Source: a virus. Taken from it: a stretch of 49,740 bases of DNA. Position numbers and translations under genes: made by a program. Shown piece by piece: positions 1-48,245 of the stretch. Each line of letters opens with the position of its first letter. Within the stretch, counting starts at the first letter, position 1. The stretch spans positions 1 to 49,740 of the IMG/VR virus record IMGVR_UViG_3300045256_000831, one strand, 5' to 3'. Under the pieces are notes generated by a model. It searched no databases. It worked only from the letters and a program-made list of their open reading frames with translations, and was not told the origin of the DNA.

Positions 1-471
1 ATGGCAATCGTAAAACTAGCGGCCGACGGCCAGGAGCTACAGCTCGACGATTCTATCGCCGGAGACGATACCCGGCTAAAGCAGGCCTTATCACCTTTCT
101 ACCCGGAAGCAGCTACGGCTAATATCCGCCGGGAGACCAATAGCACCGGGCAAATGGTAGTTAGTTTGGTTAAGCAGGCTGGAACGAAAGGTGCCGACCC
201 AATCGGCGATATTCTCATAAGTCTTGTGAAGGCCAGGCAGCATATCAACCCCGCTCTTGAACTGACCTGGCAGATCCAATTCCGCCAGGCGCTAGGGACG
301 CTCTCCATTGAAGACGTGTTGGCTCTACAGCCAATGATTGACAGCGCCGGAACGAAAGGACATGAGGAGGGTCAGAAGGTGGTAGCCGCCCTTTCCCGCC
401 TAGTCGAGGTAACACCTAAGCCGGTAGCAGCCGGTAGCCAGGCGGCGCCTGGTCTCCTCGCCGGGTTTTAG
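1..471 (+). CDS. PRTRC system protein C-like (candidate small ubiquitin-like modifier)
   Basis: A 156-residue protein and the first gene of the PRTRC cassette. The first ~65 residues match the short PRTRC C family pattern: a strand-rich start, then SPFYPEAATA (31-40), ending in GTKG (61-64). Family members that I remember are about 70-80 residues, so residues 65-156 are an extension. The extension carries a second GTKG at 117-120 and an Ala/Pro-rich tail ending GLLAGF. PRTRC C has been considered a small beta-grasp-like partner of the neighbouring ThiF protein; that role is an inference here. The gene starts at base 1, so its promoter is not visible. PRTRC F follows after 35 bases. The family call is fairly good, the modifier role is uncertain. 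Confidence 0.62.
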   Translation: MAIVKLAADGQELQLDDSIAGDDTRLKQALSPFYPEAATANIRRETNSTGQMVVSLVKQAGTKGADPIGDILISLVKARQHINPALELTWQIQFRQALGTLSIEDVLALQPMIDSAGTKGHEEGQKVVAALSRLVEVTPKPVAAGSQAAPGLLAGF

Positions 472-506
472 AAGAGAAGAGTGAAGAGAGGGTAAGTGAG
501 GTTGTT

Positions 507-1574
507 ATGACAGTCGAGATTCCGGTAGGACTCGCAGTAGCTTTGGAAGAGGCGAAACTGAAGTTGTCGCAAGGCATGAACAAACTAACTGAGGTTCCAG
601 CTCCTCTTCCTTTGCCGGTCCGCCCGCGGTTAACTTTTGATTTACAGGAAGCCTCCAAGCTGATAACCCGTTTTTCGCTCACGACAAACGCTTTTGACGC
701 CTGCGCTTACCTTGAAAGCCTTTCGCAGTCGGTGACAATCCTTTCGCTTTACCAGCACTACTTCCCGAAGGAGTGGGCTAACTCAAAGAGCCAGATGCTC
801 CCAGGTGCGGGAGATTTACGCATAAGCACTCGCTTTGGCGCAAGTAAGCTACCGGTGGCAGCCTATAGCGAGCGGGAAATAGAGTTTTTTGAGTTAGTAG
901 AAGCAAAAACTCTTTTCCCCTTTAACTACCAGACCCATGCCGACTCGATGATGGATGGCACTCGGTCGGATTTGATCGAACTGGAATATATGGGGCTGAG
1001 TTGGGAAGGAAGCGAGGATATTGGCGCCGAGCTTGAGGGCCACCGTCTGGCCTGGCAGCTCTTCTTTATTTTGTGGTGCGGGGATAAGTACGACTATACC
1101 GCGAACGCGCTAATTGAACTCATAGAGAATGAGCAGCCAAGCGAAGGGCCGAACGCCGGCCAGAAGTACCTAAAAGCGCTCAAGAAGGCAAAGTTAGGGT
1201 CTGTTCACGAGGGTAAGTTACAAGCGTTGTGCGCACCTGATGTGATAGTAAATCGCTTCGGCCCGGCAAACTATCCCCTGTCGTATTTGCCCCTTGCCGT
1301 GCAACTGATAAACGTTTCCACCGGCAATGTTTTTTTTGATTGTAATTATTGGGAGCCGCAGGAGGCTTACTACTGGAGTCACGGAATAAGTGATATAGAC
1401 GAGCTAATAGCGGAGTATAAGGAAGCCTGCGAGATAAGCCCTAAAGTAGCTGCGCTCAATGACTGGATTGAAGAAGACGCCAGGAATTTTGGAAAGGTAG
1501 TAAAGATATGGAACGAAGCGAAGGACTCCCGGAGCCGGGGAGTGGGATTAACGCTGGTAGAAATAGAGGTATGA
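507..1574 (+). CDS. PRTRC system protein F-like
   Basis: A 355-residue soluble protein with no signal peptide and no membrane segment. Position between C and B, length, and a C-terminal half with aromatic-rich blocks (NYWEPQEAYYW near 287-297, then a helical stretch ending in a W-containing DW..E block) fit PRTRC protein F. The biochemical role of F is unknown to me. A GAGG a few bases upstream of ATG 507 serves as ribosome binding site. The stop overlaps the start of the B gene by 4 bases (ATGA), which suggests translational coupling. The call rests more on context than on a diagnostic motif. Confidence 0.55.
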   Translation: MTVEIPVGLAVALEEAKLKLSQGMNKLTEVPAPLPLPVRPRLTFDLQEASKLITRFSLTTNAFDACAYLESLSQSVTILSLYQHYFPKEWANSKSQMLPGAGDLRISTRFGASKLPVAAYSEREIEFFELVEAKTLFPFNYQTHADSMMDGTRSDLIELEYMGLSWEGSEDIGAELEGHRLAWQLFFILWCGDKYDYTANALIELIENEQPSEGPNAGQKYLKALKKAKLGSVHEGKLQALCAPDVIVNRFGPANYPLSYLPLAVQLINVSTGNVFFDCNYWEPQEAYYWSHGISDIDELIAEYKEACEISPKVAALNDWIEEDARNFGKVVKIWNEAKDSRSRGVGLTLVEIEV

Positions 1575-2518
1575 GTGTGTTTGAAGAGGGCGCGGAAATT
1601 TCCCAAACACCTGCGGAAGAATGGCAGGAGGTTTTTAACCAATCTGGCCTGAAATTGACCTCACAAATTATGAGGGAACTGCTCTCACCTGGCCCTGGCG
1701 CTCTTATGGATGTTGAGGCGGCCCTTTACTTCACCTCCGGCCAGTTAATTTTCCACCACCGGGCTAGTAAGGGTAGCGAGAAAATAGGCGGTGAGCATTT
1801 TAAATGTGTTTCGCCTCAGCAGGTGGCGAATGCCTTTGCGACGCAAACTCTCGACACCGGCTGGCTGCCGCCAGGCGTGGTCAGATGGGGCAAGAATAAA
1901 AAAGGTCAGGATTGGCTGGTGAAGCTGATCCCGGCAGCCGTGCATGTGTTGACTCTCACCCGTCTAAAGCTGGCTGACCGCAAACTGGCCGGAGATGAAG
2001 ATACTAGAACTATCCGGGTGCCGCTCCCACCGCTCGTATTTGGCGGCAGCGGGAATCGCTATTTCGTCTGGGCGTTAAATGGACTGGAAGGTTCGCTCGC
2101 CCCAGATGGCAGCTTGGACGGTAATGCTCCTTTATATACGGCTCCACTTCCCAACGTCTACGATAACACGAGCATTTGTTTTGGGCAGAATAATCCGCCT
2201 GCTGCAAGCTGGGACACCATAGAACGAGTCTGGCGGCTTTTTATTTCGGACGCTCCTTACAACGCGGATCTCTCTCGTAATAAGTCTCAAACACATCCAG
2301 AAGACGTGCGAGCCCAGCTCCTTGCCCTGGCCGATCAGTATGAAGCTTCCCAGACCGGCAAAGATGCAAAAACTACTCGCAACCGGAAACGGAATTTACA
2401 TGCTACCTCAGAGGGGAAATTGGAATATCCGCTGGCCGATCTGGTGCAAATCATTAACCATTACGGCCAGAACCTGACCCTCAATGATGCAGTTCGCCGC
2501 TGTTTGATCGGCGAGTGA
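1571..2518 (+). CDS. PRTRC system protein B-like, E2-like Cys region
   Basis: A 315-residue protein. I chose ATG 1571, which overlaps the F stop as ATGA with GAGGT directly upstream, over an in-frame ATG at 1508 that would lie inside F. PRTRC B hallmarks are GWLPPGVVRWG (98-107) and the PLPPLVFGG block (151-159). Residues 191-203 (APLPNVYDNTSIC), then W214 and a helix, recall the core of ubiquitin-conjugating E2 enzymes, where HPNV..G.ICL carries the thioester cysteine; Cys203 is the matching residue. If so, B would accept a modifier from the ThiF protein and pass it on. The family call is good; the E2 chemistry is inferred from the motif and from the neighbouring E1-like and JAMM genes. Confidence 0.72.
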   Translation: MSVFEEGAEISQTPAEEWQEVFNQSGLKLTSQIMRELLSPGPGALMDVEAALYFTSGQLIFHHRASKGSEKIGGEHFKCVSPQQVANAFATQTLDTGWLPPGVVRWGKNKKGQDWLVKLIPAAVHVLTLTRLKLADRKLAGDEDTRTIRVPLPPLVFGGSGNRYFVWALNGLEGSLAPDGSLDGNAPLYTAPLPNVYDNTSICFGQNNPPAASWDTIERVWRLFISDAPYNADLSRNKSQTHPEDVRAQLLALADQYEASQTGKDAKTTRNRKRNLHATSEGKLEYPLADLVQIINHYGQNLTLNDAVRRCLIGE

Positions 2519-2550
2519 ACGAGTAATCAGAAATTTAGAGAGGCTACAAG

Positions 2551-3279
2551 ATGTTTTGCGATTATAGACTATTAAATAAACCCCAGACCGAAATGCCACA
2601 GATCAAGGTTGGCAAGATGTATGAATACGTGCTGGCCGCCGATGGAGTCTATTTACATGCCAAGAGGGAAGGGCTTGAGGTCTTTTTGCCGGTGATGGAA
2701 CCGCTCCGTTATGGTGCTGAAGTGCGCGGTCTGCTCCCGGCTACTCCTTTTGTAAAGATGGACTATCCTAAAGTACCTCACTCGCTGGTCGAGCAGATGT
2801 TAGAGAGTGCCATCGCCAGCGCTGACGACCGTGGCCGGCCGCTGGAAGTTCTTTTTCATTTGATTTGGACCGGTAGGCCGCCCGGTTACCCTGGCTGGAA
2901 ACTCGTGCTGCCGGAGCAAAAGCGCCACTATGCCAGCGTTAATCCGATAGGGAGCTCCCTCGCTCCAGGTGGTAGCTACGAACTGGCCTTTATCGAATGC
3001 CACTCCCATCATCACATGAACGCCTTTTTTTCTGGCACCGACGATCGGGACGAGCAGGGCTTTCGGATCTATGCCGTATTGGGCAAGATTTACGACCACC
3101 CTCAGCTCAGGGTCAGAGTTGGCGTCTTCGGCCAGCACTTCCAAATACCTGCAACCGAAATATTCGAACTGCCCTACGAGGGCCGAGTGCGGGATGCCAT
3201 AGTGGCTGATGAGCTCGAACAGGAAACCTCCCCGGAACCGGAAGAATTTGAGCTAGAAGCTATGGAGGTAGAGGTATGA
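2551..3279 (+). CDS. PRTRC system protein A, JAMM/JAB metallopeptidase
   Basis: A 242-residue protein with a complete JAMM zinc-peptidase signature in the C-terminal half: His151-Ser-His153, ten residues, Asp164, with Ser161 in the usual place (HSHHHMNAFFSGTDDRDE). JAMM enzymes cleave isopeptide or peptide bonds next to ubiquitin-like modifiers, or mature the modifier. The N-terminal half (1-100) is the PRTRC A-specific part. AGAGG precedes ATG 2551. The stop overlaps the ThiF start by 4 bases, so the two are probably co-translated. The acidic C-terminal tail (from about 222) has no recognised role. Confidence 0.85.
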   Translation: MFCDYRLLNKPQTEMPQIKVGKMYEYVLAADGVYLHAKREGLEVFLPVMEPLRYGAEVRGLLPATPFVKMDYPKVPHSLVEQMLESAIASADDRGRPLEVLFHLIWTGRPPGYPGWKLVLPEQKRHYASVNPIGSSLAPGGSYELAFIECHSHHHMNAFFSGTDDRDEQGFRIYAVLGKIYDHPQLRVRVGVFGQHFQIPATEIFELPYEGRVRDAIVADELEQETSPEPEEFELEAMEVEV

Positions 3280-4256
3280 CCACGGAATTACTTGAGCCCC
3301 AAGTTAGCACTAACCCGGTTAGCACGGGCACCCTCGCCGCTACCGGCAACCAGTTAGATTTGAGCTATCTCAACGCTTCTACTCTTATGATTGCACCTCA
3401 TAAGGAGGTGCGGATAGTGTTAGTCGGTTGCGGCGGCACCGGTTCGTGGCTGGCTCCCCACCTGGCCCGGATTGCCCGGGTAATTATTGAAAGTGGCAAG
3501 AAGGTTTCCCTCTACTTCGTAGATCACGACAAAGTAGAAAAGGCCAACTGCTATCGTCAAAACTTTGCTGATTGCGAGATCGGGCTGCATAAGAGCCGGG
3601 TGCTGGCGCTGCGCTATGGAGCTGCCTGGGGCCTTGATATTGCGGCTTTTCCTGAAAGGTTTAGTGTCGAACGTCCTAACCTCTACCGCTCCGGTGGTGG
3701 TGATGTGCTGACCGTCTATATCGGGTGCGTGGATAATGCCAAGGCCCGCAAGTATTTGGCTCTGACTATCGCTCATGACAATGGGTTTAACGGGCTACCC
3801 CGTTCTTACTGGCTGGATTGTGGTAACGCTTTCCAATCCGGCCAGGTCATTATCGGTTCTCACCACGACCCAAATATGTACGATATGAAACTGGCCTTCG
3901 ATAAATTGCCGGGGATGTGTACCACGCTCCCTTCTCCGGCCCTGGTAGAGCCTACTTTACTTCTCGCAAAACCGGAAGAGGAGGAAAACGCCGCAAGTAA
4001 CCTCTCCTGCGAAGAGATGAACGCTCTGAATGTGCAGTCGCTAACGATCAACCAGCAGATCGCGGGGATCGCGTCCGACTACCTCCTCCGGCTTGTGCTG
4101 CCCGGCGCTGGTGGTCTCAAACGCTTTGCCACTTATATTGATATGGCGAGCGGTGTAGCCCGCTCGAAATATATAACCAGGGAGGCTGTAGGCGCCGTTA
4201 TTGAGAACGCTACCACGCTAGTAGACAAGGGCAAGAAAGTGAGGGCAGCGGGGTGA
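3276..4256 (+). CDS. PRTRC system ThiF-family E1-like adenylyltransferase
   Basis: A 326-residue Rossmann protein of the ThiF/MoeB/E1 family. The nucleotide loop is GCGGTG (51-56). It is followed by the conserved acidic pair in FVDHDKVEKANCYRQNF (Asp83, Asp85, Asn91, Arg94-Gln95) and by GLHKS with Lys106, all typical of active E1-like enzymes. Such proteins adenylate the C terminus of a small beta-grasp protein. Cysteines that could take the thioester exist (for example in WLDCGN), but none is diagnostic. It ends the PRTRC block seen here and is coupled to JAMM gene A upstream and to a small gene downstream, both with 4-base overlaps. Confidence 0.9.
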   Translation: MTTELLEPQVSTNPVSTGTLAATGNQLDLSYLNASTLMIAPHKEVRIVLVGCGGTGSWLAPHLARIARVIIESGKKVSLYFVDHDKVEKANCYRQNFADCEIGLHKSRVLALRYGAAWGLDIAAFPERFSVERPNLYRSGGGDVLTVYIGCVDNAKARKYLALTIAHDNGFNGLPRSYWLDCGNAFQSGQVIIGSHHDPNMYDMKLAFDKLPGMCTTLPSPALVEPTLLLAKPEEEENAASNLSCEEMNALNVQSLTINQQIAGIASDYLLRLVLPGAGGLKRFATYIDMASGVARSKYITREAVGAVIENATTLVDKGKKVRAAG

Positions 4257-4471
4257 TTTCCAGGTACCGCTATTTCAGAACGCTGCCCAAACGTTTCTAC
4301 CACGTCCCAGCTTCGGCTGCCAACCCAGAGCTTTACCAGCTCCTGAAGCGTCACAATATCCCGGACAAGGATATTTACAGCATCATTTGGCACGCAGTCA
4401 GGCGCTACACCTTCAAAGGTAGGAAACCTGACTGGCCAGTCCACAAACGCCGTGTGGGCGATCTGAGGTAG
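4253..4471 (+). CDS. Small basic hypothetical protein after ThiF
   Basis: A 72-residue basic protein (many Arg/Lys, RYRYFRTLPKRFYHVP start) read from GTG 4253, which overlaps the ThiF stop by 4 bases. The overlap makes it part of the same translational unit. No motif recognised. The small size and charge suggest a nucleic-acid or protein-binding partner, which is only a guess. Confidence 0.6.
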   Translation: MISRYRYFRTLPKRFYHVPASAANPELYQLLKRHNIPDKDIYSIIWHAVRRYTFKGRKPDWPVHKRRVGDLR

Positions 4472-5112: not shown

Positions 5113-5748
5113 ATGGACTTTGGCGAGCTTGAAAACCAGATGCTGCGTACTGCCAAATTTGATGAGCCGTTCGACCGGGCTTTAAGCCTGTGCGCTCTGG
5201 GACTAACCGGCGAATCGGGGGAGATAGCCGATCTGGTAAAGAAAGTTTTTTACCACCATCACGAATTCGACGAGGCCAAACAGGCTCAGCTCATTGAAGA
5301 AGGCGGCGACTGGCTCTGGTATGTTTTTTATCTGCTGCGTACTCTGGGGTTAAGTTTTGAGGCCGTGTTGAGACATCCCAGGTACGAAATTATTGTCTAC
5401 CGCCCGATAATCTTAAACGTGGCTCAAACCTTTACTTACCTGGCAGTCGAACTCTCGTGCAAGTCCGGCGAATTAGCGTCTGCTATTTTCGAAGCCAAAG
5501 ATAAAAAGGAAAGGGCCACCCACCCCAGTAGCCGCAGCTATTTTATCGGTTTACTTGTAGAGCCTGTCGCTTACCTTTCAATCCTCGCCCAAAAGCTCGA
5601 TTCGAGCCTTGAGGAAATGTGCCAGGCAACCATCGAAAAGTTGAATAAGCGCTATCCCAACGGTTTTAACACGTCGGATAGCATCGCCAGACGGGATAAG
5701 CTTAACGCTACCAATCCTGAAGAGGGCCTTAGTCATGCTGAAGTATGA
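5113..5748 (+). CDS. MazG-like NTP pyrophosphohydrolase with degenerate second repeat
   Basis: A 211-residue all-alpha protein behind a strong AAGGAGG site. Residues 1-85 hold a MazG core: GLTGESGEIADLVKK with Glu34/Glu37, then EEGGDWLWY with Glu63/Asp66, which gives the ExxE...ExxD metal site. The normal MazG ending does not follow. A second, weaker copy comes first (about 103-185): AVELSCKSGELASAIFE, LLVEPVAYL, SLEEMCQATIEKLNKRYPNGF. It keeps the family ending but lacks the Asp of ExxD. It therefore looks like a fused pair with one active and one degenerate unit. MazG enzymes hydrolyse NTPs to NMP and PPi; phage members may lower alarmone or aberrant nucleotide levels. Confidence 0.85.
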   Translation: MDFGELENQMLRTAKFDEPFDRALSLCALGLTGESGEIADLVKKVFYHHHEFDEAKQAQLIEEGGDWLWYVFYLLRTLGLSFEAVLRHPRYEIIVYRPIILNVAQTFTYLAVELSCKSGELASAIFEAKDKKERATHPSSRSYFIGLLVEPVAYLSILAQKLDSSLEEMCQATIEKLNKRYPNGFNTSDSIARRDKLNATNPEEGLSHAEV

Positions 5749-6085
5749 CCCAACTAACCCGGCGCATGTCCGGGCCAATAAAGCGATCCAGGGTTATCTC
5801 TGGACACTTCGTGAAGCAGGCCTGGATGTGGTAGACGAACAGGAACTTCTTAAGCTGAGAGGGCGCGTCCTTCACCTGGAGGCTGAGCTTGAAGTAACTC
5901 ACCAGCTTTACGAGGCTCAAAACGAAGCGCTGGCTCTTATCCCTGAGTGTCCGGATCACGGGATTGGCTGCCTATCCCACAAAAAAGAGTGGATAACGGC
6001 TCGTCTCGAAGCCGGTAATAGTAATGGTGGTGGTAACAAGCCGCAACGGCCGGGGAAGGGCAGGCGAAATAAGAATGTTTCTTGA
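5735..6085 (+). CDS. Hypothetical early protein
   Basis: A 116-residue protein starting at ATG 5735, inside the end of the MazG-like gene (14-base overlap). The middle (about 38-70) is a heptad-like helix rich in Leu/Glu that could form a coiled coil. A short Cys/His group follows (CPDHGIGCLSHKKEW, about 73-87). The tail is basic and Gly/Asn/Lys-rich. Function not recognised. The overlap shows it belongs to the early operon. Confidence 0.62.
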   Translation: MLKYDPTNPAHVRANKAIQGYLWTLREAGLDVVDEQELLKLRGRVLHLEAELEVTHQLYEAQNEALALIPECPDHGIGCLSHKKEWITARLEAGNSNGGGNKPQRPGKGRRNKNVS

Positions 6086-12526: not shown

Positions 12527-13786
12527 TTGAGTACGACATTCCAGGATTATCTAACGGGGTACATTGGACAAGCGCTAGGTGAACCTCTGTCCGAACAACA
12601 GCCAGTGGCAGATCCGGATGAAGCCAGCCGCCAGCGAGTGGCACGCATGCGGGAAATCGCTCCAATGCTAGAGGAGAGGATTGTAAACCATTCAGCTTCG
12701 CAGTGGTTTCGCCTGAGCCAGGAAGAGGCGCCGGTAATGGGAATTCCCAGGCAAGGTGGTGGTTACGCTTTCCCCTTCGAGGTAGAGCCGTATGAAACTC
12801 CGCTAGCGCCGGTGGAAGACTATAGCGGAGCCTATCCTATCATGCCAACAATTCGTGAGCTGCGGGCAGATGCAGCCCCAGCCCTCGGTGGGCCAGCGGA
12901 CGTTGACCGACTTAACCGGTCACTCCTTACGGCTATGGCGGTTCCAGCCCGGTTGTTGGAAGATGTTGCGCCCGCCAGCTATATCGAGGAAGATGTGGTC
13001 CAGTTACGAAGAGAATTCATGATGGACGCGCTTAGAGAGGTTTTTCTGGAGCAGCTTACACCTACACCGCCCGCCCAGGCTCAGGACCAGGGCGGGCAGC
13101 CTGGGACCAGCCCGAACCCGGATAGCGGCCGGGTATTTTATCACCGGTTCAGGCAGGTAGAACGCCATGCTTTCCCTGATGGATTTAACCTTTATTGTGA
13201 TAAGCCAATTGACGAGGAAGCGGCCCAGCGGCAGCTTATCCAATTTTTAGATACGGCGGGCATCGCCCCGGCCGAGAAGCTGTTAGAAGCGGTCGAAGCT
13301 GAAGAGATAGACGGGCATCTATTTTCCCATTGCATCATCGGCACGCTGGCCCGTTACTACTATAACCAGCCGCTTAATTTGACAGTGGACCCTTACCGGC
13401 GGTTGAAAAAGGAAGCCGGGTTCAGTCGCATGGTCCCACTGGAACTCGATTTGGAAAGGATGGTAGAGCATGTCTACTATCGTAAACCGTTCAAGCAATA
13501 CTACGGCTCTAACCCGGTTCTGGTTAAAATATCCGGCTGGATAAAAGAGTGGCTCGAAACTGCCAGGAAGAGACAAGCTGAAGCCAAAGCCCGCCAGATC
13601 GAAAATCAGAAAAGGAAGGAGATCCAGACCCTTATGCGCCGCCTCCTTGCCCGCCCGGCTATTTGGTCGGAGCATCATGAGGGTGATGCCCTACCGGCAT
13701 ATCACGAAGCTCCACGGCGGGGCTTTGGCCCGGTTACACGGGCGGCTTACCGCCTGATCGGGAGGCGGCTACCTGATCGCGAGTAA
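12527..13786 (+). CDS. Large hypothetical protein, last gene of the early operon
   Basis: A 419-residue protein starting at TTG 12527, with AAGGAGG 6 bases upstream deciding the start. It has an acidic N-terminal third, a Pro/Gln/Gly-rich linker (about 180-205) and a basic helical C terminus (about 340-419, Lys/Arg-rich, RKRQAEAKARQIENQKRKE). This layout suggests nucleic-acid binding by the tail, but no domain is recognised. It ends about 50 bases before the bidirectional terminator that closes the rightward operon. Confidence 0.68.
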   Translation: MSTTFQDYLTGYIGQALGEPLSEQQPVADPDEASRQRVARMREIAPMLEERIVNHSASQWFRLSQEEAPVMGIPRQGGGYAFPFEVEPYETPLAPVEDYSGAYPIMPTIRELRADAAPALGGPADVDRLNRSLLTAMAVPARLLEDVAPASYIEEDVVQLRREFMMDALREVFLEQLTPTPPAQAQDQGGQPGTSPNPDSGRVFYHRFRQVERHAFPDGFNLYCDKPIDEEAAQRQLIQFLDTAGIAPAEKLLEAVEAEEIDGHLFSHCIIGTLARYYYNQPLNLTVDPYRRLKKEAGFSRMVPLELDLERMVEHVYYRKPFKQYYGSNPVLVKISGWIKEWLETARKRQAEAKARQIENQKRKEIQTLMRRLLARPAIWSEHHEGDALPAYHEAPRRGFGPVTRAAYRLIGRRLPDRE

Positions 13787-14293: not shown

Positions 14294-14638
14294 TTAAGCT
14301 TGAGAGGTTGGTCTGTACTTCTCAAACCACTTGTAAAGCTGGGGAATTGTAACCTGTCCGAAGCCCTTACCGTCGAGCCAAATCATGCCGAGCTGCAAGG
14401 TCTTTGGGTCCGTGCTATGGGCCATGAGTTTTATTACAGCGATCACAAAGCTCACATCTTCGTCTAAATCATCGCCCAGCTCGCCTTCTTCGTCGCAGGC
14501 GCCTTCCGGTACGAGGCGGCTCTGGAACTCCATGCACATCCTGGCAAAGGCGGCCTCACCGTAGTGGGAGAGTGCCCTGGCGCGGGCCTCGTCGGCTAGA
14601 TGTTTGATCGTTGTAACAGTGTTAGTATTATCCACCAC
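14294..14638 (-). CDS. Small protein B, paralogue of the gene at 13906
   Basis: A 114-residue protein with the same blocks as its neighbour: TTIKHLADEAR (about 9-19), HYGEAAFARMCMEF, an acidic loop (EEGELGDDLDED) and GMIWLDGKGFGQV near the end. The pair must come from a tandem duplication with substantial later divergence. Its start overlaps the 3' end of the MmeI-like gene by 11 bases, so it is probably translated by coupling with the enzyme. Role unknown. Confidence 0.75.
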   Translation of the reverse strand: MVDNTNTVTTIKHLADEARARALSHYGEAAFARMCMEFQSRLVPEGACDEEGELGDDLDEDVSFVIAVIKLMAHSTDPKTLQLGMIWLDGKGFGQVTIPQLYKWFEKYRPTSQA

Positions 14639-17474
14639 CCAACTCCGGCTCTTCGTCTTCAGCTTGGTCCACAGTGGGGAGAATCTCTCCCTGGTTAGCG
14701 GCGCGTTCGAGATTGAGTGCTAACAATCTCTCAAGAATTTGGTCATCGGTTAAATCAAGCGGCCAGCCATAAGCCTCCAACACCGCCTTATCTAACTTTT
14801 TGTGAGCCATGTCGAGCCATTCTGGACGCTGGTTGTAGAGGTTGGTCAGCGTGCGCTTTTTAAGTTCGGCTTCGTCTGCGCCGGGCGGGTTCAGCCAGTT
14901 ATCCCGCTTTTGTATTAGCTCTCGTGCCGCCTGGGCTATCGCTCCCACCAGTTTGTCTCCTATTAGCTCTTTCCCCGGTGGCCACGGGAATGGGAAAGTT
15001 TCAAATGTACTAGTCGGGGTGTAACGAAAGCCACTTTCAGCTTCACGCAACTGAGTACCTTGACCCCTCGCCCAAAGTTCGTGAACTTTAGAATGTAAAA
15101 TTCCAAAAAAATAATCGTCATCACGAGCGAACACAATAAGCTGCCCGTCAGGTAAAATATTGGCGTTTAAATATACAAAAAGACGATGTTTTGTTAGCCT
15201 GGGAGTCCCAATATAACGGTTGAGTGATTTAAGCATCTCTCGAATTCTAGGCGCCGCATCCCCGTGTATCCACCAATACGCGGCCCTTTTTTTCATTTTA
15301 TTTTTGACCCTCAGAGGCTTGACACGCTGTCGAATATATTCAAAGGGCAGTTCGTACAAAGCAGCCTCATGCTCTGGCATGTCGGTGCCAAAATCAATAA
15401 TCCACATATTACGAGAACGGCCTGTAATATCTAACCCATTTACCCAGGGTCGAATAACATCACTATTGGGCCGGCCGTTTGGATTACCTTTAGCTGCAAG
15501 TAATAAATCTGCTGTCGCCGCATCAATATCGAAAGCGCCTACTTTAATATCACCCATAGCAGCGATGCCTATATTTTCCTGAAGTCTTTGAGCTGTAGTC
15601 AGATCTAAAGCACCTGTGAGGTTGGCATTGATACTTTGCACAGATAAACCATTCAATGTGCGAGATGGTTCTTTCCCATTGTCAAATCCAACTATCGATA
15701 CATGAACTGCTACGCCCTCTTGTATCCAGGGCCGGTCACTCCAGGCCATAAAAATGTCGCCACTTTGTTTAACACGATTTAATACTGTGCGGTTCTTACC
15801 ACCACGAATCCCTTGAGTAGCTATTAAACCCGCTTTTTGGATTTTATTATTCGCAATAAGTTCTCTAGCCCGCTCAAACCAATAGATTACTAAATCCGCA
15901 CTACCTGGGACACGACCCGCATATAAACTACGAATATCATCTACATATTTATCTTTTAACTCTGACCTCATTTTCTTTTCCCCTAAAAAGGGCGGGTTGC
16001 CGATAACAATGTCTGCTTTAGGCCACTCTGGTTCGGTAGGGCGGCCCTGGTCATCATAGGCCAGGATGGCATCCATGTGCAGAATATTGTGAAGCGGCTT
16101 GAGGATGGGTTCGGGCGGGAAGCCGAAGCCGTTGTTCCACCACCACTGAATATAGCCGATCCAGACGGTGGCCTGGGCCAGTTCGTGCGCGTATTCATTG
16201 ATTTCGATACCGTGTAACTGTTCCGGTGAAACGCTTGGAGTGAGGCGCGATAGTCCCACATCCATTGCAAAGATCGCCACCTCTTTTTGTAAATCGAGCA
16301 ACTGCTTGAGAGCAACGTAAAGAAAATTGCCGCTGCCGCAGGCAGGGTCTAGCACCTGGACGCTGGCAATTTCATCGCTGAAGCCGGTCAAGAGGCTGAC
16401 AAGCGGTTTTTCGCGGTCGGCCCGCTGTCTGCTGTTGGTAGCAGCATCCCGCTGTGCTGCTAGGGCGCGGGCTTGTTCTTGCACCTCGGCCCAGCGACGT
16501 CGTAAAGGTGTTATTAGCACCGGCTCAACAATCAAAAGAATATCATCTCGGTTGGTATAGTGCGCTCCCAGTTGCGCCCGTTTGTTTGGGTCCAGGGAGC
16601 GTTCGAACAGTGTTCCCAGAATAGCAGGCTCAATGTTCGACCAGTCCAGTTTGCAAACTTTGAGCAAAATCCCCTTTGCTGCGTTGTCAAGTTCGATTAC
16701 GTCCTCATCGTTGAATAGACCTCCATTGAAATGGGGAATTGTTTCAAAATAATACATTCCTCCCGACTTCATGGCCGTGAACAAGGAACGGAGTTCCTCG
16801 ACGAAGTGATTAGCAGGCGTCTTTTCAGTACCTTGAACCAATTTGGTGAAAATATTGTTGGGCAGCAGTTGGACATCCTCGGCAAAAAGACAGAAAAGCA
16901 ACCGGATCAGGAAATGAGCTGCCCGGTCCGGCTCGACACCTCGCTTGCGAAGTAAATCAGCAAGCCGGGCAAACTCTGTTGCCGCCTGTTCTGTAGCCTC
17001 CTGCAGAGTTTGAGCGGTGCGGAAAGCCTCAAAGTTGGTAAAGACGTTGCGCAGCAAAGACAGCTTGTGAGGGTCGAGCAGGTCATCAATTGTCAGGCGA
17101 GTAATCTTCTTAACAGTGTTATAAAAATTGGTATGAATTTCGATAGTAAGATTGTCACTGACTACCAGTAACGGCGGGTTTTCAAGCGATTCGCGGTATT
17201 GTAAAAGCTGGTTGTAGGCTTTTTCGAGGCTAGCACGGTTACGCTTATATTCCCAGGCAAAATAGCCTTTTTTCCAGACATCGGCCCAGCCATCTTCACC
17301 GCTTAATTTGGTAGCGCCTTTCTCGAAAGTATAAAATTCCCCGGTAGGATCTTCATCGGTGGGGGTCGGAACTCCTAGCATCTGGCACAGGTCTATGAAG
17401 TGGGATTGGGCGCTGGAACGTTCGGTAAGCTGTATTCTTTTCCATTTATCTACGAATTGCTGAGGTGTTGGCAT
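14628..17474 (-). CDS. MmeI-like (type IIL) restriction-modification enzyme
   Basis: A 948-residue single protein with both nuclease and methyltransferase. N-terminal PD-(D/E)xK nuclease: Asp65 in GWADVWKKG and Glu75-Tyr-Lys77 in FAWEYKRNR, followed by AYNQLLQYR as in MmeI. A helical spacer (about 150-330) leads to the N6-adenine methyltransferase with motif I DPACGSG (376-382) and motif IV GNPPFLG (492-498). The rest is the target-recognition region and C-terminal helices. MmeI itself is 919 residues, so this copy is full length. Such enzymes methylate one strand of an asymmetric site and cut about 20 bases away. On a phage or prophage it could mark its own DNA and exclude rivals. The section around 15100..16000 (recognition part) is more AT-rich than the rest. 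Confidence 0.9.
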   Translation of the reverse strand: MPTPQQFVDKWKRIQLTERSSAQSHFIDLCQMLGVPTPTDEDPTGEFYTFEKGATKLSGEDGWADVWKKGYFAWEYKRNRASLEKAYNQLLQYRESLENPPLLVVSDNLTIEIHTNFYNTVKKITRLTIDDLLDPHKLSLLRNVFTNFEAFRTAQTLQEATEQAATEFARLADLLRKRGVEPDRAAHFLIRLLFCLFAEDVQLLPNNIFTKLVQGTEKTPANHFVEELRSLFTAMKSGGMYYFETIPHFNGGLFNDEDVIELDNAAKGILLKVCKLDWSNIEPAILGTLFERSLDPNKRAQLGAHYTNRDDILLIVEPVLITPLRRRWAEVQEQARALAAQRDAATNSRQRADREKPLVSLLTGFSDEIASVQVLDPACGSGNFLYVALKQLLDLQKEVAIFAMDVGLSRLTPSVSPEQLHGIEINEYAHELAQATVWIGYIQWWWNNGFGFPPEPILKPLHNILHMDAILAYDDQGRPTEPEWPKADIVIGNPPFLGEKKMRSELKDKYVDDIRSLYAGRVPGSADLVIYWFERARELIANNKIQKAGLIATQGIRGGKNRTVLNRVKQSGDIFMAWSDRPWIQEGVAVHVSIVGFDNGKEPSRTLNGLSVQSINANLTGALDLTTAQRLQENIGIAAMGDIKVGAFDIDAATADLLLAAKGNPNGRPNSDVIRPWVNGLDITGRSRNMWIIDFGTDMPEHEAALYELPFEYIRQRVKPLRVKNKMKKRAAYWWIHGDAAPRIREMLKSLNRYIGTPRLTKHRLFVYLNANILPDGQLIVFARDDDYFFGILHSKVHELWARGQGTQLREAESGFRYTPTSTFETFPFPWPPGKELIGDKLVGAIAQAARELIQKRDNWLNPPGADEAELKKRTLTNLYNQRPEWLDMAHKKLDKAVLEAYGWPLDLTDDQILERLLALNLERAANQGEILPTVDQAEDEEPELGGG

Positions 17475-36928: not shown

Positions 36929-38320
36929 TCAGTTCCTGGTCAGGTTTTCCAGGTAACTGATAGCTTTCTCAAGCTTCACCGCCGCGATCTTCATGGCAGC
37001 GTCTTTTTGCTTCTGGCTTTTAAATTTGGCGGCCATAACTCTCTGGCCCTGTTCGGCCCAGTAATTAACTCCGGCAATAGCCAGCACCAGGGCCTTCCTT
37101 TGGCGCTGAACGTTAAGCGGTAGCATTTTGGATTTAGGAATCCGCTTACCGTCCGCCCCGATAAAACTCTTGGTAGCCAGGTCGAAAACGGCGTAAGGCT
37201 GGGCCGGCGTAGCTACCACGCTGATCTCGAATAGGTCGGCCGATACGATCTCGTTGCCCTGGCGGGTCCAGATACCACCGATAGAGAAGGTGTGCAAGAC
37301 CCCGTTTTTGATGTCCAGGTAGATCTGAAGTAGCGGCTCCCAGACCGGTTTTCTCACGAAAGCTTTCACCCAAAGCCCGTAGTCGTCATCGAAGCGGTAA
37401 GCTACCACCTGTCCCAGAGGCTTATTCCCGATGACCTGGTCGAGACCATGCTCGTACAACAAGATCGGGTTTAGCTCGAAGTAGGTGCGCATGCTTTCCT
37501 GGAAGACCTGGCTGGTAGGAGCAATCAAATCACCGTAGCGGTCTTCAGGGGCGCGTACCGCCGCCCAGCCCTCGATAAAGATGCCGGGCATGCCCTCGTA
37601 GATGGTTTCGCTGGTGCCGGCCGTTTTGAATTCCAGCTTGAAATCAGTTTTCTTTGTAGTGCCGAGGGCCTGTTGTTTGTTTTTGGGAGGCTGGTTGGTG
37701 GGCATTGATTTCTTTTCTTCTTGTGAGGTGGTGGGTTTGGCTAGCTGGAAGGGGAGGCGTTTATCGCCCCAGGCGAGGTGGAAGCGGTCGAAGGCGATCT
37801 GGTGAGGTTCGGGCAGCCCTATTCTTTCTGGCACAGGCGGAGCATCCTCCGGTACGTAGGCCAGCGTGCAATGCGGGGTAAAGCCGTGGTTTGGTTCCAC
37901 GGAAAGGCCGCTGGCTTTTACGCATTTCACCAGCTCGTGGCGCCAGTCTTCGAGGCCCGGCGCATCAAACGAAGCGCATAGAGCGTGCTGGCCGTCGTCG
38001 CCACCGTCCCGGTTATCGAACCGAATGAGGCCGCTGAGAGTGCCTTCGACCGGTCCCATCTTAGCCGCGAAAGCCTTTAGGTTCTTTGCCAGCGCTAACT
38101 TACACTCGTTAAAAGCTTTAGCGCTTTCCTCATCCTCCAGATCCCCCAGGTAGGCGAGGGTCACATGCATATCGCCGGGCGGTACGCAGCGAATGCCACC
38201 CATCATGGCGGCAGGTTCGAGCGCCAGTTTACCGGCCACTTCCTCTGGCAGGAAGAAAGCCAGCATTACACCGGTATGTGGTTCGTTAGTTGGGGTAGTG
38301 ATAGCTTCTTTAGAAGACAT
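36929..38320 (-). CDS. 2H phosphoesterase fused to HK97-type prohead protease
   Basis: A 463-residue two-domain protein. Domain 1 (about 16-195) is a 2H (RNA-ligase-like) phosphoesterase with both HxT motifs: His52-Val-Thr54 (MHVTLAYLGD) and His150-Cys-Thr152 (PHCTLAYVPED). After a Lys/Gln linker (196-235), domain 2 (about 240-390) is a U35-type prohead protease: GIFIEGWAAV, catalytic His291 (LYEHGLDQ), Ser346 (HTFSIGG) and Glu365 in LFEISVVATPA. A basic helical tail follows. Internal Met206 could give the protease alone; its ribosome site is weak. The protease would mature the capsid. The 2H part may cleave RNA or cyclic oligonucleotides. An anti-CBASS role, as for T4 Acb1, is a hypothesis. 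Confidence 0.87.
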   Translation of the reverse strand: MSSKEAITTPTNEPHTGVMLAFFLPEEVAGKLALEPAAMMGGIRCVPPGDMHVTLAYLGDLEDEESAKAFNECKLALAKNLKAFAAKMGPVEGTLSGLIRFDNRDGGDDGQHALCASFDAPGLEDWRHELVKCVKASGLSVEPNHGFTPHCTLAYVPEDAPPVPERIGLPEPHQIAFDRFHLAWGDKRLPFQLAKPTTSQEEKKSMPTNQPPKNKQQALGTTKKTDFKLEFKTAGTSETIYEGMPGIFIEGWAAVRAPEDRYGDLIAPTSQVFQESMRTYFELNPILLYEHGLDQVIGNKPLGQVVAYRFDDDYGLWVKAFVRKPVWEPLLQIYLDIKNGVLHTFSIGGIWTRQGNEIVSADLFEISVVATPAQPYAVFDLATKSFIGADGKRIPKSKMLPLNVQRQRKALVLAIAGVNYWAEQGQRVMAAKFKSQKQKDAAMKIAAVKLEKAISYLENLTRN

Positions 38321-48171: not shown

Positions 48172-48245
48172 TGGTAGCGGGACCTGGATTCGAACCCGGT
48201 ATTTAAGTTTATGAGACTCATGTGTTGCCCTTACACCATCCCGCA
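48172..48245 (-). tRNA. tRNA with CAT anticodon (Met, possibly Ile after modification)
   Basis: A 74-base cloverleaf: acceptor TGCGGGA/TCCCGCT with base 1-72 U-U unpaired; T8; D-arm GTGT/ACAC with a GG-containing loop; anticodon stem TGAGT/ACTTA with loop CTCATAA (anticodon CAT); T-arm CCGGG/CCAGG with loop TTCGAAT and one G-A mismatch; discriminator A and encoded CCA. The 1-72 mismatch recalls initiators, but the three G-C pairs of the initiator anticodon stem are absent, so it is an elongator Met or a lysidine-type Ile tRNA. Phage tRNAs often match codon bias or replace tRNAs cut by host defence. Confidence 0.87.

Follow-up and report, generated by a model that had tools for sequence, protein, structure and literature searches.

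The window analyzed here is a complete IMG/VR virus record (IMGVR_UViG_3300045256_000831; 49,740 bases, end repeats absent), which opens with five open reading frames (ORFs) on the + strand, C, F, B, A, and ThiF, forming one tightly coupled operon (window 1-4256). We consider it likely that this cassette encodes a ubiquitin-like (Ub) conjugation system and that it is a diverged, phage-borne version of the plasmid PRTRC cassette, an operon type classified by Iyer, Burroughs, and Aravind in 2006 as class 6d, with cyanobacteria among its hosts (PMC1779556). A first-pass annotation made from the letters alone had proposed five coupled genes that make up a phage-borne, PRTRC-like set of ubiquitin-type enzymes, and the ORFs, the protein families, and the virus loci confirmed this proposal. 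A search of IMG/VR with a close ThiF profile (A5) returned 163 virus contigs with ThiF relatives, from which 80 loci were kept; the Ub, E2, JAMM, and ThiF genes were all present in this order on one strand in 62 of these 80. Since 173 fetched loci matched ThiF and the ordered set recurred at this frequency, the gene set is not a product of chance.

The C gene (1-471) encodes a protein of 156 residues. AlphaFold2 predicted a beta-grasp fold (strands 3-8, 11-16, 41-46, and 52-57; helix 23-30), with a predicted local distance difference test (pLDDT) score mostly >90 for residues 3-57, then a low-confidence linker (pLDDT 61) at a GTKG motif, and then a separate helical domain (residues 67-137). 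Using VIA-align, residues 1-64 matched ubiquitin, SUMO1, NEDD8, ISG15, and MoaD (Z 4.5-5.3), with a root-mean-square deviation of 2-3 Å in most rows. The top rows were nearly all ubiquitin-fold proteins, and residues 63/64 fell at ubiquitin positions 76/77. C alone did not reach the threshold for Prok_Ub (E 0.14); this family was reached by 24 of the 49 members of the C alignment (best 1.5e-30). Sequence relatives of C or A were not found in the PDB. The earlier view of C as a small modifier needs correcting: C is not a small free protein and appears to be a 156-residue precursor with an extension after Gly64.

The only invariant columns among the 49 aligned C sequences were K63 and G64, and relatives carried -[T/S/P/V]KG at the same boundary. 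A stop codon comes directly after the -KG in, for example, Aromatoleum, Planktothrix, and Arash; a related extension follows it in a clade of cyanobacterial and soil-phage sequences (blastp 1e-10 to 1e-4), and in other phages unrelated extensions start from this residue. In BgVeeders33-type pairs with unlike extensions, the Ub parts were 93-100% identical, whereas the next 20 residues were 0-25% identical (55% in one pair). An extension similar to that of C is encoded by its own gene in Planktothrix and Pseudanabaena plasmids. Furthermore, Bacillus phage KLEB27-3 (L006, 745-1452) encodes four head-to-tail Ub units (...GVKG-MARTV...) in a polyubiquitin-like arrangement, and Vibrio phage D69 encodes three, each ending in GTKG. 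Since the conserved -KG precedes a stop, unrelated sequence, or the next Ub copy, cleavage after Gly64 is predicted. Judging from these alignments and models, C would be a precursor from which the Ub-fold part (residues 1-64, 1..192, ending in AGTKG), the predicted mature modifier, is released from the C-terminal helical extension (residues 65-156, 193..468).

A second GTKG in C (residues 116-119, window 344-361) is encoded by DNA, GCcGGAACGAAAGG, that is almost the same as that of the first. We rejected it as the mark of a second Ub unit: the model places it inside a long helix, and relatives do not conserve it. Separately, the PADLOC model C3a152 ("Type III-C specific") matched C residues 7-123 (E 1.1e-17), and it seems that a Ub-like precursor is listed there as a CRISPR type III accessory protein.

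The protease that would cut after Gly64 is probably A (2551..3279), a JAMM metallopeptidase matching PRTRC_A (E 8e-15; 54.9 bits against a cut-off of 101.8) and Prok-JAB (E 5.5e-5). Its residues E99, H151, H153, S161, and D164 are present, with the HxHx10D motif intact (H151-S-H153-x10-D164), and were conserved in 77-78 of 78 relatives; R39 was nearly invariant (alignment A3). Among the loci with a JAMM gene, 55 had an extension on Ub and 13 did not, whereas in all 12 loci without one, trimming of Ub would be unnecessary (one Ub ends in GTKA). JAMM was not found in the whole records of these 12 loci, in a search in which positive controls were detected. The association between JAMM and the extension (Fisher 8.6e-8) came mostly from one clade. 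Since JAMM changes only approximately three times on the ThiF tree, we regard the association as suggestive, not proven.

The active sites of the other two enzymes were similarly well preserved. ThiF (3276..4256), an E1-like adenylyltransferase of the ThiF family, matched PRTRC_ThiF (E 1.9e-41; 142 bits against a cut-off of 144.75) and has GxGGxG (GCGGTG), D83, N91, R94, Q95, K106, D153, R158, and C245. Its nucleotide-binding residues were invariant or nearly so among 94 relatives, and C245, the candidate catalytic Cys, was conserved in 94/94. The ThiF profile matched structures of UBA6, ThiF, BilD, BubCD, and Cap2. The closest ThiF proteins (40-50% identical) were from cyanobacterial plasmids, a Chlorohelix (Chloroflexota) plasmid, metagenome-assembled genomes of Acidobacteria and Anaerolineae, and other virus contigs. 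The E2-like protein B (1571..2518, in an ORF open from 1508) matched Prok-E2_D (PF14460, E 3.5e-19) and PRTRC_B (E 5.4e-11; 42.3 bits against a cut-off of 131.45); a PDB sequence search with B gave a chance-level match only. With residues counted from the ATG at 1508, the motif PLPNVYDNTSICFG holds C224, and P213, N216, and C224 were each present in 90/90 E2 relatives. The catalytic residues of E1, E2, and JAMM thus hold across homologues, being invariant or nearly so in 78-94 relatives. The first-pass assignment to PRTRC stands in that A, B, and ThiF all gave significant matches, and falls short in that all three lie under the NCBIfam cut-offs. Therefore, the cassette is a divergent relative rather than a textbook PRTRC set.

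The remaining gene, F (507..1574), was linked by an iterated profile to the annotated PRTRC F of Aromatoleum, and homologues found with this profile sit between Ub and E2 in 59 of the 80 cassettes. The AlphaFold2 model of F was helical and of moderate confidence (mean pLDDT 71).

We infer the following pathway from these genes. C would be made as a precursor, and A would cut it after Gly64 to free a ubiquitin-fold modifier ending in -GTKG. ThiF would then adenylate the C terminus of the modifier, probably hold it on C245, and pass it to C224 of B, which would attach it to lysines of target proteins. A may also remove the tag, and F probably serves as an adaptor or selects the targets.

Several points weigh against this interpretation. 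The VIA-align Z score of C is only approximately 5, and Foldseek with the C model gave weak results (no E <0.1), for which the presence of two domains in one model is perhaps the cause. The link between JAMM and the extension is not significant once descent is allowed for, and is only consistent with processing by A. B lacks the His that Iyer et al. considered to be part of the active site. The model of F gave no fold match in the PDB, and an E3 was not recognized in the cassette. No biochemistry on any PRTRC set was found in the literature searched, and conjugate formation by the cassette is a prediction. Regarding the His downstream of the E2 Cys, described as "absolute conserved" in class 6d (PMC1779556), it is replaced in the window (YNAD), an Asp variant. 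Of the 90 E2s, 27 (including that of the window) lacked it, mostly having FNxD instead. Therefore, the His is not diagnostic of the wider family, and the window represents a variant of class 6d.

The first-pass annotation had described PRTRC sets as known mostly from plasmids; the comparison showed that phage carriage of the cassette is common. A portal or terminase gene was present on 32 of the 50 contigs tested. A supported clade with 25 ThiF members groups the window protein with 15 virus contigs, every one of which carries portal or terminase, and with most of the cyanobacterial plasmids. The set is carried by the isolated phages Bacillus KLEB27-3, Vibrio D69, Burkholderia BgVeeders33, Salmonella Arash, and Acinetobacter ME3. 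Single-protein searches of viral contigs with ThiF, or with the window 12527-13786 product, gave no matches, and a 12-sequence ThiF profile for the virus search was dropped as too diverse. In ME3 (L182, 2745-5855), the JAMM gene is split into two profile halves (2745-3179 and 5205-5855) separated by approximately 2 kb that contains a tRNA-Met along with ORFs and may be an intron or a homing insertion.

Class 6d comprises a Ub-like protein with a C-terminal Gly, an alpha-helical protein, an E2-like protein with a conserved Cys, a JAB protein, and an E1-like protein; its JAB-N domain has a strictly conserved Arg and Trp (PMC1779556). The window similarly has a beta-grasp protein with a conserved Gly, an E2 Cys, JAB, E1-like, and helical proteins in one operon. 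However, it is on a phage, its Ub is made as an apparent precursor with an extension, and the E2 His is replaced. Since Gly64 precedes the extension, the terminal Gly of class 6d is here releasable rather than free. The gene order C-F-B-A-ThiF on one strand is that of PRTRC (NCBIfam TIGR03734-03737; plasmids and integrative elements), as in Aromatoleum aromaticum EbN1 plasmid 1, and related phages have ParB upstream of C; what distinguishes the window from PRTRC is that A, B, and ThiF score under the curated cut-offs and that C is a fused, putative precursor. The sets of the GenBank phages KLEB27-3, D69, BgVeeders33, Arash, and ME3 also comprise Ub-like, E2, JAMM, and ThiF proteins, with the Ub ending in -GTKG or -GVKG where clear, and are mostly annotated as hypothetical or structural. 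Some of them differ from the window in having several Ub copies or a standalone Ub, and the ThiF proteins of KLEB27-3 and BgVeeders33 are only 24-29% identical to that of the window.

Two better-known systems share parts of this set. Bil, an ISG15-like defence system of bacteria, has a Ub-like protein, an E2, a JAMM-type deubiquitinase, and an E1; to our knowledge, it lacks F and ParB. In contrast to Bil, the window set is carried by a phage, and its ThiF is weakly similar to BilD (8tyz, E 3.7e-4). None of the PADLOC Bil models was matched, and we use Bil as an analogy only. In phage lambda, the JAMM domain of gpK reportedly cuts a Ub-like domain off gpI (PMC12908700). The pairing of a phage JAMM domain with an attached Ub-like domain resembles the window; however, lambda has no E1 or E2, and gpI and gpK are tail proteins, whereas the window A and C genes are separate from the virion operon. 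No description of phage PRTRC sets was found in the open-access literature searched, although such descriptions may exist elsewhere. This type of system was already predicted in 2006 and is known on plasmids as PRTRC. The papers searched do not describe how widely phages carry it, the Asp variant of E2, or an architecture with precursor and polyubiquitin-like forms.

The surroundings of the cassette bear on its target. A ParB-domain gene lies directly upstream of the Ub gene in 19 virus loci, as in canonical PRTRC; single-stranded DNA-binding protein genes occur a little further upstream in related loci, and terminase and HNH genes downstream. ParB was searched for in the whole window record and none was found. 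Base 1 of the record is the ATG of the C gene, which indicates that the upstream DNA was lost or trimmed; therefore, ParB, D, and E are not visible upstream of C, and the absence of ParB is expected if the cut removed the upstream gene. The cassette is also present on plasmids, which make no virions, and a virion-only target is thus unlikely for the family as a whole. Based on this sharing with plasmids and on ParB adjacency in many phages, we speculate that targeting most likely reaches beyond the virion, to a protein of DNA maintenance, replication, or the host.

According to an alternative that was also raised in the first-pass annotation and that we consider unlikely, the set acts on the virion: the modifier would be added to or removed from structural proteins, controlling assembly or protecting the particle, in the manner of a reversed Bil or of lambda gpK/gpI. 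The reported cleavage of gpI by gpK and the terminase and portal genes downstream of the cassette in phages related to the clade of the window are consistent with this idea, as is Salmonella phage Arash, in which GenBank labels E2 (gp248c) and ThiF (gp246c) "structural protein". Arash proteins with at least 2 unique peptides in mass spectrometry of purified particles were relabelled structural, and several consecutive proteins of the cassette region are listed (PMC10585845); the numbering there may be shifted by one relative to GenBank. However, ribonucleotide reductases are among the 116 proteins on the particle list, and carry-over of abundant enzymes is considered possible by the authors (PMC10585845). 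Furthermore, plasmids have the same cassette, and in the window it lies apart from the virion operon, in the arm on the opposite strand. HMM (hidden Markov model) matches confirmed the identities of the Arash E2, JAMM, and E1. Upstream of these enzyme genes (OQ632216, L181), we found an unannotated Ub-like ORF (107-307) ending in GTKG and a stop codon; GenBank annotates instead an overlapping ORF in another frame (102-320). The detection of E1 and E2 in Arash particle preparations indicates that at least one isolated phage expresses the enzymes while infecting its host.

Somewhat less probable still is a phage-carried defence or superinfection exclusion system, in which the proteins of rival phages would receive the modifier, a role that Bil has for bacteria. 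Its distribution is mobile and patchy, and ThiF is distantly similar to defence E1s (BilD, BubCD, and Cap2; PADLOC E1-E2). Moreover, a 78-kb relative of the window (G001), with head genes 45-65% identical and a left-arm recombinase 59% identical, has no ThiF in its record; unless G001 is a fragment, the cassette is accessory in this lineage. However, B and A matched no PADLOC defence family, ParB adjacency is unusual for defence genes, and large phages without lysogeny genes in their genomes, such as Arash, also carry the cassette.

We regard two further explanations as improbable. In a ThiS/MoaD-like sulfur-carrier system without conjugation, ThiF could form a thiocarboxylate on C that serves the chemistry of cofactors or nucleotides. 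ThiF and a -G C terminus are features in common with ThiS/MoaD systems; however, an E2-like protein with an invariant Cys occurs throughout the cassettes, and no sulfurtransferase or biosynthesis gene recurs beside them, making this explanation very doubtful. We give hardly any credence to a misjoined assembly, raised in the first-pass annotation, in which the first 13 kb would be a plasmid or other replicon joined to a phage: the arms are transcribed oppositely and differ slightly in G+C (52.1 vs 55.3%), and G001 has head genes without ThiF, but the cassette adjoins phage families (phrog_874, MazG, and, further on, integrase), L019, an independent virus contig, has a phrog_874 homologue immediately after its ThiF gene, both arms have genes in common with G001, dozens of contigs carry the cassette with portal or terminase, and the tetranucleotide correlation between the left and right arms (0.879) compares with 0.863 between the two left-arm halves.

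Ub-like conjugation in bacteria is known mainly as an anti-phage defence. If a Ub-like conjugation system is indeed encoded here, phages, including cultivable isolates, use ubiquitin-style chemistry themselves, and such tagging would seem to be a common tool of phages that has gone unstudied. We see roughly even chances for the broader proposal that many tailed-phage lineages run their own tagging pathway, with a precursor, polyubiquitin-like forms, and a JAMM protease trimming to -GTKG, that it acts in the course of infection to control DNA-maintenance, host, or virion proteins, and that the enzymes travel in some particles. The comparative data also yield a prediction for the plasmid cassette: its modifier would end in -GTKG and be matured by the neighboring JAMM protease. 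With this end, the remnant on a target lysine after trypsin digestion would be one Gly (+57.02 Da), and searches for GlyGly remnants would miss the adducts. Since +57.02 Da is also the mass of carbamidomethylation, adducts could have escaped proteomics; the expected tag, one Gly on Lys, may be searched for in existing proteomics data.

The junctions of the operon are tight. The true start of B is probably 1571 rather than the ORF start at 1508, because the ATG at 1571-1573 overlaps the F stop as ATGA. A and ThiF similarly overlap as ATGA (3276-3279), and ThiF overlaps a 72-residue + strand ORF (4253..4471) as GTGA at 4253. This translational coupling makes the ORF a possible extra member of the operon; a homologue search with it gave none. 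It is followed, also on the + strand, by the phrog_874 phage protein (4512..5096, 3.6e-32) and a MazG-like pyrophosphohydrolase of a phage early-gene type (5113..5748; phrog_229 6.6e-27, PF03819 1.7e-9).

Elsewhere in the window, an MmeI-like restriction-modification enzyme is encoded at 14628-17474 (PF20473, 4.3e-29), and a tRNA-Met (CAT) lies at 48172-48245, close to the right end of the record. The protein encoded at 36929-38320 has a 2'-5' RNA ligase/LigT-type phosphoesterase domain fused to a prohead protease-like part and could act on nucleotide signals; a relative (L016) also has this protein together with the neighboring GNAT gene.

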